In this document: positions 7,959 through 55,862 of the stretch, one piece after another
How the letters are laid out: every line of letters starts with the position of its first letter
Numbering within the stretch: position 1 is the stretch's first letter
Assembly (NCBI GenBank): GCA_910574865.1
Contig: CAJTDN010000020.1
Coordinates: 1-58,508, forward strand
Direction: 5' to 3'
Length of the DNA: 58,508 nucleotides
From: Lachnospiraceae bacterium
GTDB taxonomy: Bacteria > Bacillota > Clostridia > Lachnospirales > Lachnospiraceae
Position numbers and translations under genes: made by a program
Notes under the pieces: model-generated
What the model was told of the DNA's origin: nothing
The model's input: only the letters and a program-made list of their open reading frames with translations
Databases searched by the model: none

Positions 7959-8684
7959 ATGAAATTTAATCCAAACAGTACCATTCTTTTCGTGCTGGCG
8001 GCGGCCGTGATTGTGTTCGTCATTGCCCAGTCCGTCTTTTTCATGGTGCGCGCTTACCGCCGGGGGAAGGAACTCGGCATAGACACGGCACAGATGAAGA
8101 AGACAATCGTTTCCACGGCGATTTTCACGATTGCCCCGGCTTTGTCCATTTTGTTGGGCGTGATTACCTTGTCCAAGTTTTTAGGCCTGCCCCTGCCATG
8201 GCTTCGCCTAAGCGTCATCGGGGCCATCACCTACGAGCTTCCGGCGGCCACTTCGACGGCCAGCGCGTTTGGCATCTCATTGTCAGAGACGGTGACGGAT
8301 CCAAAGGTATACACGGCCATCGCCTGGGTGATGACGCTGGGTATTTTCCCGGGGCTCATCTGGGTGCCGCTTTTCATTAAAAAAATCCAGGGCGGCTTGA
8401 TGAAAATCAAGAACAAGGACGGCAAGTGGGGCGACATCCTGATGACCTCGCTGTTCCTTGGCATGATTTCCGCGTTTTTGGGAATGGTGTTTGCCGATAT
8501 CCGTATCGGCCTGGCGGGCTGGATTCCGATTTTCGTCCTGCTGTTTTCCGCCTTTTTGATGGGGATTTGCGGGATTTTAATTAAGAAATGCAACATGAAG
8601 TGGTTGGAGACGTACGCCCTGCCAATCAGCATGTTGGGGGCGATGATTTTCGCGGCGGTTGTCACGCCGCTGATTGGAGGGTGA
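7959..8684 (+). CDS. DUF5058 family membrane protein
   Basis: A 241-residue protein with about six or seven membrane helices. It starts with one helix (residues 8-27) and a basic loop (RAYRRGKELGIDTAQMKK), then hydrophobic segments with the conserved stretch GAITYELPAATSTASAFG. I recognise it as DUF5058, a clostridial family without known function. The start is the ATG at 7959, behind GAGGGAGGA, and not the upstream in-frame codon at 7893. The next membrane protein starts 5 bases after its stop, so the two are very likely subunits of one membrane complex, plausibly a transporter. The M20 peptidase downstream hints at peptides or acylated amino acids as substrate; that is inference. Confidence 0.75.
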   Translation: MKFNPNSTILFVLAAAVIVFVIAQSVFFMVRAYRRGKELGIDTAQMKKTIVSTAIFTIAPALSILLGVITLSKFLGLPLPWLRLSVIGAITYELPAATSTASAFGISLSETVTDPKVYTAIAWVMTLGIFPGLIWVPLFIKKIQGGLMKIKNKDGKWGDILMTSLFLGMISAFLGMVFADIRIGLAGWIPIFVLLFSAFLMGICGILIKKCNMKWLETYALPISMLGAMIFAAVVTPLIGG

Positions 8685-8689
8685 GGGAC

Positions 8690-9346
8690 ATGAAGAAAAG
8701 TTACGAGGAAATGTCGCATGTTTACGGAAGAATCTGGATTTTGACCGCGCTTGGCATGATTTTTGCCTACCCGATTGTCACTTGTATTTATTACGGGGCG
8801 TGGCCGGGGTGGAAGCCGGTACTGACGGGGCTTCTGGGCGTGGCGCCGATTTATTGGACGGTCGGCCTGATCGAGGTGCTGACGTTCGTGCCGATGCTGG
8901 GCACGTCAAGTTCCTATCTGGCGTTCGTGACGGGGAACCTGACGAGCCTGAAAGTCCCGGCGGCGTTAAATGCCATGGAAAACGCGAAGGTAAAGCCGGG
9001 CAGCGAGGAGGGGGAGGTGATATCCACCCTTGCCGTGGGTACTTCGTCCATCGTGACGACCGTCATCATCGCCCTTGGCGTGGCGCTTTTAGTCCCGCTG
9101 ACCCCGATTTTGGACAGCCCCGTCGTCAAGCCGGCCTTTGACAATATTTTGCCGGCCCTATTCGGCGGTTTGGCGGTCGTGTACGTGAGCAAGAACTGGA
9201 AAATCTCGATCGCGCCGCTCGTGTTCATGATTGTGTTGTTTTTGCTCGTGCCGTCTCTGTCAAGTTCCGTCGGGGTGTTGGTGCCGGTGGGAGCGTTGAT
9301 TGCCATCGGGGCGGCCAGGATTATGTATAAGAGAGGAATGTTGTAA
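8690..9346 (+). CDS. Polytopic membrane protein, probable partner of the DUF5058 protein
   Basis: A 218-residue protein with about six membrane helices. A polar segment, KVKPGSEEGEVISTLAV, sits between the helices. Gly/Ser/Thr-rich membrane stretches such as MLGTSSSYLAFVTGN resemble substrate-contacting helices of secondary transporters. I do not recognise the family with certainty; related proteins are sometimes labelled mechanosensitive-channel-like. The start is the ATG at 8690, behind GAGGG and 5 bases after the DUF5058 stop, which implies coupled translation. Its TAA stop lies at the very start of the first 100-bp structured repeat. Confidence 0.7.
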   Translation: MKKSYEEMSHVYGRIWILTALGMIFAYPIVTCIYYGAWPGWKPVLTGLLGVAPIYWTVGLIEVLTFVPMLGTSSSYLAFVTGNLTSLKVPAALNAMENAKVKPGSEEGEVISTLAVGTSSIVTTVIIALGVALLVPLTPILDSPVVKPAFDNILPALFGGLAVVYVSKNWKISIAPLVFMIVLFLLVPSLSSSVGVLVPVGALIAIGAARIMYKRGML

Positions 9347-9542
9347 GAGGAAACTCCGCATAACTAGGTTCGAGAGAACCTCACCAAGGAATGCGGAGTA
9401 CATTCACACTAAGCTCGTGTGAAACCTCGCTAAGTGTTCATGGTAAGAGGAAACTCCGCATAACTAGGTTCGAGAGAACCTCACCAAGGTATGCGGAGTA
9501 CATTCACACTAAGCTCGTGTGAAACCTCGCTAAGTGTTCATA
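9343..9542 (+). repeat. Tandem duplication of a 100-bp two-hairpin element
   Basis: Unit 1 is 9343-9442 and unit 2 is 9443-9542; they differ at one base inside (an A/T change next to ATGCGG) and at the end. Each unit has hairpin A with outer stem ACTCCGCAT / ATGCGGAGT (9353-9361 with 9391-9399), and hairpin B with stem ACACT-A-AGC / GCT-A-AGTGT. Both enclose the core CT-A-(A/G)G(C/T), a 13-14 base loop ending in ACCTC, and the complementary (A/G)C(C/T)-A-AG. The first unit begins at the stop codon of the upstream gene; the second runs into the AGGAGG of the M20 peptidase gene. Related copies are at 14449-14542 and 55757-55842. Confidence 0.85.
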
Positions 9543-9558
9543 GTAGGAGGAAAGTGAT

Positions 9559-10995
9559 ATGTGGATTTTATGGATTGTCTTGGCATTGGTAGTGGTTTGG
9601 CTGGCGGTGGTCCTGGTTCGGGCGGCGTTGTATAAACCGAAGCCGGAGCTGGTTCCGTCCGAGGAGAAGGTGGAACTGGACGAGGGGCGCATTGTCGGCG
9701 ACATGCAGGAACTGATTCGCTGCAGGACGGTTTCATACAATGACGACGCGATGATTGACAAAGAGGAGTTCAAGAAATTCCAAGACTTACTGCCGCGCCT
9801 TTACCCGAAGGTGCACGAGGCGTGCGAGCGGACGTTCCACGGCGTGAACGGCATGCTCTACCACTGGAAGGGAAAGAAAAGCGACGCGCCTGCCGTCTTG
9901 ATGTCCCACTATGACGTGGTACCGGTGGAGGAATCGCAGTGGGAAAAGCCGGCTTTCGAGGGGATTGTGGAGGACGGCGTGCTCTGGGGGCGCGGAACAC
10001 TGGATACGAAGGGGACGCTCTGCGGCATCATGGAGGCGGCGGAAAAGCTGATTGGCGAGGGCTTCGTGCCGGAGCAGGACGTGTATTTCGCGTTCTCCGG
10101 GCAGGAAGAAATCAACGGGCCGAGCTGTCCGGCCATCGTGGACTGGTTCGAAGGGCAGGGCATTCGTCCCGCCATCGTGGTGGACGAGGGCGGCGCGGTC
10201 GTGGAAAACGTGTTCCCCGGCGTGACGCGCGAGTGTGCGCTGATCGGCATTGCCGAGAAGGGGTTGGAGAATATCGAGTTCCATGCCAAGAGCAGGGGCG
10301 GACATGCCTCGACCCCGCCGGTGCACACGATTGTCGGCGAATTGGCCGAGGCGATGGCCAAGGTGGAGAAGCATCCGTTCCCGCGCCAGCTGACCAAGCC
10401 GGTGAAGGAAATGTTGGACATTTTGGGGAGGCATTCTACGTTTGCCTACAAAATCTTGTTTGCCAACTTGTGGTGTTTCGAAGGGCTGTTTGACCTGGTT
10501 TGCAAAAAGTCCGGCGGCGAGTTGAACGCGATGCTGCGTACGACTTGTGCGCTGACCAAGATGGAGGGCAGCAAGGCCTTCAACGTGTTGCCGCCGAAAG
10601 CGTCGGCGGGCATGAACCTGAGGTTGATTGGGACGGACACGACGGAGTCCGCCCGTGCCTACCTTGAGAAAGTGATTGACAACCCGAACATCGAGGTTCG
10701 CATTTTCGAGGGCAGGAACCCGTCCACGGAGTCCGACACGTCCTGCCGGGAATGGACGGACCTTTGCCAGGTGGTCACCGACACCTGGCCGGGGGCGCTG
10801 GTTTCCCCGTACCTGATGATGGCGTGCAGCGATTCGTGGCATTATTGCCGGATTACGGACCGGGTGTATAAGTTTTCCGCCATGAAGCTTTCGAAGGAGG
10901 AGCGCGGCATGATTCACGGAAATAACGAGCGCGTGCCGGTGGAGACGCTGGTGAAGGCCGTGGAATTTTACGTGAGGTTGATGAAGAAATGTTGA
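9559..10995 (+). CDS. M20 family metallopeptidase with N-terminal membrane anchor
   Basis: A 478-residue zinc peptidase of the M20/M28 superfamily. A membrane helix covers residues 2-25. Then come the metal and catalytic motifs: LMSHYDVVP with the first His and Asp, GRGTLDTKG with the bridging Asp, and [10 protein letters not shown] with the general-base Glu pair; a dimerisation insert starts near [17 protein letters not shown]. The large insert and membrane anchor recall carboxypeptidase S-like M20 enzymes, which split dipeptides or N-acyl amino acids. The start follows TAGGAGG. Lying after the DUF5058 pair, it could process what that system imports. Exact substrate cannot be told from sequence. 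Confidence 0.85.
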
Positions 10996-14448: not shown

Positions 14449-14542
14449 GAGGAAACTCCGCATGACTAAGCCCGGGAAGACCTCGCTAAAATATGCGGAG
14501 TGCATTCGCACGTAAGTGACCAAAAGACGGTCACTTACGTGC
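14449..14542 (+). repeat. Two-hairpin intergenic element, third copy
   Basis: Hairpin A keeps the outer stem ACTCCGCAT / ATGCGGAGT (14455-14463 with 14493-14501) and a core starting at 14465, with the 13-base loop ending in GACCTC. Hairpin B differs in sequence from units 1 and 2: GCACGTAAGTGACC at 14508-14521 pairs perfectly with 14529-14542 across a 7-base loop. The element fills the gap between the SNF2 gene and the esterase ribosome-binding site. Confidence 0.8.
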
Positions 14543-14564
14543 CCATGGCATGGAGGTATTTAAA

Positions 14565-55740: not shown

Positions 55741-55756
55741 ATAATAATAAAGAAGT

Positions 55757-55842
55757 GACGCTGCACTAGGCTCGGAAAGACCTCGCCAAGTTGCAGGTAA
55801 CTACATTCGTACGTAAGCACCTAAAACATAGGTGCTAAGTAC
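55757..55842 (+). repeat. Two-hairpin intergenic element, fourth copy
   Basis: Hairpin A has a different outer stem from the other copies, CTGCA/TGCAG (55761-55765 with 55792-55796), but the same core CT-A-GGC, 13-base loop ending in GACCTC, and GCC-A-AG. Hairpin B pairs GTACGTAAGCACCTA (55809-55823) with TAGGTGCTAAGTAC (55829-55842). TAGGAGG of the next gene follows at once. Confidence 0.8.
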
Positions 55843-55862
55843 TCATAGTAGGAGGTACTATC

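Follow-up and report, generated by a model that had tools for sequence, protein, structure and literature searches.

The paired hairpins that occur in intergenic leaders of a 58,508-nt stretch of DNA from a Lachnospiraceae bacterium (contig CAJTDN010000020.1; hereafter the window) are copies of a dispersed two-hairpin element. We consider it somewhat probable, at a little under 0.6, that this element is a small DNA repeat of the Lachnospiraceae, mobile now or in the past, which resembles the REPINs and is addressed to Shine-Dalgarno (SD) sequences. The evidence that carries this reading consists of the copy number of the element, the covariation of its stems, its presence or absence at the same sites in relatives, its nested arrangements and its position relative to genes, all of which were observed directly.

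Organization of the element

The element is roughly 100 nt long (about 102) and is made up of two hairpins, both in the same orientation. In an alignment of 24 host copies, hairpin 1 is composed of a variable outer stem, CT-A-xGy, a TC/TC internal loop, a short loop, ACCTC and yCx-A-AG, and hairpin 2 of an outer TAC/GTA and AT/AT stem, a TC/TC mismatch and a GCAC/GTGC stem. The tip of hairpin 2 is either the same core as that of hairpin 1 or a GTAA/TAA junction followed by an inner stem of hypervariable sequence. Both hairpins of most copies carry the A·A and TC/TC motifs, as read by eye from the alignment, and the 3' end of the element is ..TCATNGYAAG. The conserved parts comprise the A·A mismatch together with two loops, the TC/TC internal loop and TCG..ACCTC. 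A preliminary description of this DNA had regarded both the A-A mismatch and the loop as fixed. The mismatch is indeed found in all six cores of the window, but the loop is partly variable, the bases between TCG and ACCTC differing from copy to copy.

A regular expression for the core finds exactly six cores in the window, at 9364, 9409, 9464, 9509, 14466 and 55766, which agrees with the four copies and six cores first reported; the inner stems, the A-A mismatch and the alternative outer stems (ACTCCGCAT/ATGCGGAGT versus CTGCA/TGCAG) are likewise as first described. The tandem pair consists of two 100-nt copies that are 98% identical and that a repeat comparison places at 9343-9442 and 9443-9542. 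Its coordinates stand, but the single copies that had been placed at 14449 and 55757 are wider according to R1, the covariance model introduced below (Table 1). The order at all three sites of the window is stop codon, element or elements, GGAGG and start codon, so that the original placement between a stop codon and a ribosome-binding site holds throughout.

The copies of the window differ in several details. The core at 14466 has CCG in its loop and ends in TAAA, and its outermost C is therefore unpaired. The second hairpin of the 14449 copy, which has an unbroken stem without the mismatch, is an exception to the usual anatomy, and that of the 55749 copy is without the core and retains the A-A motif (GTAAGC..GCTAAG). 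The folding energies of three copies lie 4.1-7.2 s.d. below those of dinucleotide shuffles.

Table 1. Copies of the element and adjoining signals in the 58,508-nt window
Feature	Position	Strand	Evidence
Two-hairpin element, tandem copy 1; core in both hairpins	9347..9446	+	R1, 105.9 bits; 98% identical 100-nt repeat
Two-hairpin element, tandem copy 2; 3' end adjoins SD of gene at 9559	9447..9546	+	R1, 107.8 bits
First-hairpin core CTAGGTTCG..ACCTCACCAAG, copy 1; identical at 9464-9488 in copy 2	9364..9388	+	Core regular expression
Second-hairpin core CTAAGCTCG..ACCTCGCTAAG, copy 1; identical at 9509-9534 in copy 2	9409..9434	+	Core regular expression
Stop codon of upstream gene (8588-9346), immediately 5' of copy 1	9344..9346	+	
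SD GGAGG, gene start 9559; first base of SD is last base of array	9546..9550	+	
Single two-hairpin element; core 14466-14490; second hairpin an unbroken 14-bp stem	14449..14551	+	Regular expression, folding, R1
SD GGAGG, gene start 14565; immediately 3' of the 14449 element	14552..14556	+	
Single two-hairpin element; outer stem GTGACGCTGCA; core 55766-55790	55749..55851	+	Regular expression, R1
SD GGAGG, gene start 55863; first base is last base of the 55749 element	55851..55855	+	

Copy number and distribution

The covariance model R1, which was trained on host copies, has at least 128 matches in the 5.33-Mb host genome (E<=0.1), and these group into 86 arrays; the counts are lower bounds since 150 of 1000 candidates were scored in the host search. 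BLAST returned 52 matches in the same genome at E<=1, and a model-free scan of 1.25 Mb for the core returned 44, compared with 8-14 in controls, in agreement with the R1 count. The family first described from the window thus has many further copies in the same genome, and the search of relatives with the covariance model extended it well beyond the host. Matches occur in each of the 12 genomes of the genus, that of the host among them (range 2 to 120), and the second-richest member, genome G008, has 72. Under strict filters, matches were found in 34 of 150 genomes of the family (26 candidates scored per genome) and in 6 of 291 genomes of the class (13 candidates scored per genome), and all six of the latter belong to the host's family. 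A search of GTDB genomes with the core pattern gave at least 120 stretches. Among the 80 matches listed, most are named as Lachnospiraceae or as genera of that family, and a few are named by order or class only, or as Clostridium, Clostridiaceae or Eubacterium.

The hairpins had not been recognised as a known riboswitch, and Rfam bears this out: the window has no match at the gathering threshold, positions 9320-9570 have none at E<=1, and at the loci of 15 relatives only rRNA, tRNA and TPP reached gathering. No account of this element was found among the open-access papers listed in literature searches. Spread on phages or plasmids was considered and rejected, with no matches there. In a separate observation, the exact core was seen in four contigs of the IMG/VR viral collection (L499-L502), two for each of two core patterns, which may be phage or host DNA.

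Position relative to genes

Genes were called with our own script, a non-standard caller that ignores tRNAs. In the host, 75 of the 86 arrays are in the sense orientation; 72 are followed by a gene on their own strand and the other 3 precede tRNA genes (C10:131123, C5:229331 and C18:33168). The distance from the end of the array to the start codon is at most 20 nt in 52 of the 72 and at most 40 nt in 68 (median 14), and an SD-like motif is present near the array end in 54. Arrays located between divergent genes end no more than 39 nt from a start codon in 16 of 17 cases and have 94-959 nt free upstream (Fisher-combined P 5e-8 for all 17). None of the 78 resolved arrays lies between convergent genes, where about 8 would be expected (P 2e-4). 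The downstream genes are of many kinds, judging from translations read by eye, and include what we take to be DnaX, valyl-tRNA synthetase, GyrA-like, PurM-like and HisD-like proteins, among others.

The reversed arrays number 11 of 86 and belong mostly to other subfamilies, and nine of them lie within 11 nt of a stop codon and away from an SD. One reversed subfamily, observed in genome G000 at C1:49850 (L108), C10:45344 (L112), C4:79862 (L120), C7:209422 (L110) and C9:189672 (L113), has ATCCACTCA..GGGAT-like stems and a TTGCTTTCGG-like end, and lies no more than about 11 nt from the stop codon of an opposite-strand gene.

In relatives, copies adjoin what by eye are 16S genes (L068, L069, L155, L164, L372 and L425) and tRNAs, and Rfam places the 16S gene in L155 and the tRNAs in L145. 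Other copies precede genes that, named by eye, are presumably rplB, rplF, rplN and rplC. The orientation of the element in the spacer before rplF, which we take to be the rpsH-rplF spacer, is opposite between genera (L161, L163, L166 and L167 versus L056, L141 and L144). A universal element of 16S leaders was considered as the origin of the family and rejected, as the element was seen by eye in 4 of the 33 family genomes viewed (G149, G124, G085 and G016). The 16S loci viewed were the best matches to a query from G149 or matches to RF00177, which matched 4 of 60 genomes because five candidates were scored per genome. At L370 (G057) no 16S start was obtained, and for G049 coordinates point to one further putative 16S-leader copy. 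Sequestration of the SD by the ACCTC loops was also rejected, since the element leaves the SD, if anything, slightly more open, at 0.58 compared with 0.49 when the upstream region is shuffled (P 0.004, 51 copies).

Empty sites and nested copies

For the detection of empty sites, both flanks of host arrays were mapped on G008, of which 20 stretches totalling about 395 kb were used, a procedure that favours filled sites because these stretches were chosen around the elements of G008 itself. Of the 17 comparable sites in G008, 5 are empty; 9 are filled, 1 (C10_103969) has only a 3' remnant, and 2 were left unjudged. The SD is in place at each of the empty sites (C20_9347, C4_332981, C4_357163, C5_63779 and C6_188584). 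At the focal site 9347, which corresponds to the SD at 9546..9550, G008 has TTGTGAGGTGGCTGACATG without the element. The 14449 element is missing from the syntenic locus of another relative, G011, and the G008 locus orthologous to the 55749 site holds an element of different arrangement.

At 14 host junctions the 3' end of one element runs into the 3' half of another, in hairpin 2 in 12 cases and in hairpin 1 in 2. From their sequences these appear to be copies nested inside resident copies, and several of the junctions could instead be tail duplications. Two pairs of orthologous arrays differ by a nested copy, which is present in C11_7456 and absent from L431 of G008, and present in L435 of G008 and absent from C10_67471. 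The inserted copy in both pairs ends at the CAAG or CAAA of the resident, and the 3' inner strand of the resident is lost.

Target-site duplications were not detected in 68 arrays (mean boundary match 5.32 versus 5.21 permuted, s.d. 0.15), which leaves the exact ends of the element unproved. Terminal inverted repeats were not found by eye in 72 arrays, the ends of which are not inverted repeats of each other, and every inverted repeat around the tandem pair is a hairpin-1 stem. The arrays behave like insertions. A BOX-like mobile repeat was one of two possibilities raised at the outset, and it gains support from more than 100 dispersed copies, from orthologous sites that are filled in one genome and empty in another, and from the apparent nesting.

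No intact Y1 transposase gene was found in the host, its Y1_Tnp matches being three decayed fragments, and no Y1 transposase was found in G008, which has 72 matches to the element; both are drafts (96% and 94% complete, respectively) in which a Y1 gene could be missed. Among 56 Y1 loci of the family that were scanned, the core was found at 2, both in G049 and more than 1 kb from the gene. An association of the element with an adjacent Y1 transposase was rejected, no such pairing having been found in the host, in G008 or at the 56 family loci. RAYT-like Y1 proteins of about 190-315 aa are encoded in a number of Lachnospiraceae genomes (L479-L493), and the core hairpin is not adjacent to them.

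Covariation and the balance of wobble pairs

Across 120 distinct host copies, 89.8% of the cells in the R1 structure are paired, and pairing falls to at most 31% when the partner is slid. Both sides change in 20 of 22 pairs in the host, a count reached in none of 500 shuffles that ignore the relatedness of the copies, and in all 22 pairs in relatives (31 copies), figures that lean upward because the alignments were fitted to the model and their rows are related. The covariation of the stems, which was first noted from the six cores of the window, is genuine.

Folded RNA accepts G·U far more readily than A·C. In a control set of 75 distinct tRNAs from the same loci, scored at the fixed stem positions of ARAGORN models, the ratio of G·T to A·C is 77:3. 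The inner stem of hairpin 2, collected with a regular expression that does not demand pairing, has ratios of 7:10 in 49 host hairpins and 4:7 in 51 hairpins from relatives, which sum to 11:17; the loop-closing pair, as C·A, accounts for 11 of the 17 A·C, and leaving it out gives a total of 9:6. The well-paired columns of the model alignments give 53:43 in the host and 16:7 and 12:7 in relatives, and all model pairs give 88:69 in the host and 22:11 and 55:31 (about 2:1) in relatives. When the host rows are ranked by score, the ratio is 18:6 in the 30 best, 9:22 in rows 31-60 and 61:41 in the third group. Every set of elements has a lower ratio than the tRNAs, with Fisher P values from 0.004 to 8e-11 on rows that are not independent.

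A·C is so common relative to G·T that pairing seems to be kept largely irrespective of which strand is transcribed. Decayed copies alone would also shift the ratio toward parity, and the 2:1 lean in relatives together with the top-scoring host rows is compatible with an RNA contribution. The other possibility raised at the outset, a selected RNA structure that acts in mRNA, is thus weakened; the covariation on which it was based is real, but the share of A·C is far above that in tRNA.

Comparison with known repeats

By analogy, the element would appear most like the REPINs, though its units are not inverted and no RAYT gene was found beside it. REPINs, as described in an excerpt of PMC3116915, consist of two inverted REPs, are random in extragenic space and are tied to a neighbouring RAYT; their stems are compensatory, copies occur in or beside existing copies, folding as single-stranded DNA or mRNA is predicted, and sequence reads from excised forms are reported. 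The element shares with the REPINs and REPs of Pseudomonas and E. coli covered there the character of a short intergenic hairpin repeat, the compensatory stems and the insertion into or beside other copies. It differs from them in that its hairpins are direct, most of its arrays adjoin SDs, and no intact Y1 gene was found in the two richest genomes.

Similarities to other families are less extensive. The BOX, RUP and SPRITE repeats of Streptococcus pneumoniae are, in the part of PMC3049150 consulted, dispersed, modular, folded repeats of about 100 nt that are co-transcribed with genes, as the present element would be. According to the same part, BOX and RUP are enriched between convergent genes, whereas the present element is found there in 0 of 78 cases and mostly ends at an SD. 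Correia elements lie mainly just 5' of genes and their RNA is cut by RNase III (excerpts of PMC10969869 and PMC2229807). Correia/NEMIS and ERIC, which are MITEs, are also short mobile repeats, but they are described in these excerpts as having terminal inverted repeats and target duplications, neither of which was found here. The YPAL element of Yersinia has internal inverted repeats, and its targets span or adjoin dyad symmetry, comparable to the nesting seen here; it differs in its length of 168 bp, its target duplications of 3-26 bp and its phylum, and the excerpted account names no SD address (PMC2229807).

Proposed mechanism and alternatives

If the element is a mobile DNA repeat, the A·A and TC/TC mismatches and the TCG..ACCTC loop would be recognition features for a protein that handles a folded single strand, presumably a single-stranded DNA intermediate. 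The stems would need only to pair and would thus be free to drift with compensation. Insertion would be one-way and directly 5' of an AAGGAGG-like SD that serves as the address; it would also occur at the 5' ends of tRNA and 16S genes and, at (C/T)AAG, within the hairpins of copies already present. The AA of AAGGAGG would be restored by the 3' end of the element itself, which would keep the SD intact and make insertion harmless. The proposal of an SD address comes from the position of the arrays, which function could equally impose. A more specific proposal, that a mobile hairpin DNA found throughout the Lachnospiraceae is addressed to the SD (AA^GGAGG, or its own (C/T)AAG), colonises leaders harmlessly and is moved by an enzyme other than a Y1 transposase, is offered tentatively and has somewhat less than an even chance of being correct. 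Some copies, such as those in 16S and tRNA leaders, may have a role as RNA.

Alternatively, the hairpins could be a selected mRNA element that acts in processing, stability or translation just 5' of an SD, tRNA or 16S gene and spreads by duplication, for example an RNase III-type intercistronic site. This is unlikely. The sense orientation of 75 of the 86 arrays and their constant distance to the start codon fit such an element, yet both would also be expected from insertion beside an SD. Copies precede 16S, tRNA and ribosomal-protein genes in relatives, but the 16S leaders contain the element in only 4 of the 33 family genomes viewed and the genes downstream in the host are diverse. The covariation, which extends to 20 of 22 pairs in the host and to all 22 in relatives, and an SD that is slightly more open than with a shuffled upstream region (0.58 versus 0.49), are also consistent with function in mRNA, and in relatives G·T outnumbers A·C by about 2:1; this wobble excess, however, is far below the tRNA level, 5 of 17 orthologous sites are empty, and 11 arrays are reversed.

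A REPIN or PATE in the strict sense, that is, a relative of IS200/IS605 or REP elements that is non-autonomous and depends for its movement on a Y1 (HUH) transposase with single-stranded DNA as substrate, would account for two hairpins with unpaired conserved positions, for nesting into resident copies without target duplication, and for compensatory stems like those in the excerpted account of REPINs (PMC3116915). RAYT-like proteins do exist in the family, but with no intact Y1 gene found in the host and none in G008, cores at only 2 of 56 Y1 loci (both in G049 and more than 1 kb from the gene), and hairpins that are direct rather than inverted, this origin is improbable. It is very improbable that the complementary stems have no selected function and are kept by replication, with template switching perfecting quasi-palindromes. 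Such a process should erase the A·A mismatch, yet the mismatch and the loop stay while the stems drift. The near parity of A·C and G·T in host copies would follow from it, as would the related cores that tip copy-specific, near-perfect palindromes with G·T:A·C of 26:22 in 18 cases.

Lachnospiraceae are abundant in the gut, and if the SD is the address of a mobile repeat, the leaders of 72 genes or operons have been altered in one of their genomes. This would be a safe-harbour strategy, which is absent from the excerpted accounts of BOX, Correia, ERIC, YPAL and REPINs. A functional RNA is usually proved by its covariation. The present repeat lies in mRNA leaders and covaries at 20 of 22 pairs, yet its wobble signature is much weaker than that of tRNAs from the same loci, which is a warning against assigning a riboswitch-like label from covariation alone.

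Related hairpins

Two further observations concern the inner stem and the core. The orthologous elements C14_110960 (G000) and L433 (G008) are nearly identical except in the six-base inner stem, which differs by several pairs (GCGTCC/AGACGC versus GTGACC/GGTCAC) and looks as if it had been swapped as one block. The same core also tips very long, near-perfect palindromes with 44-94 paired positions in many Lachnospiraceae (L179, L190, L191, L231, L248 and other loci). The arms of these palindromes are copy-specific, a GCTYTCGCT-like side motif accompanies them, the G·T:A·C ratio of 26:22 comes from the 18 that were measured, and the palindromes make up a second, larger class of repeat with the same head.
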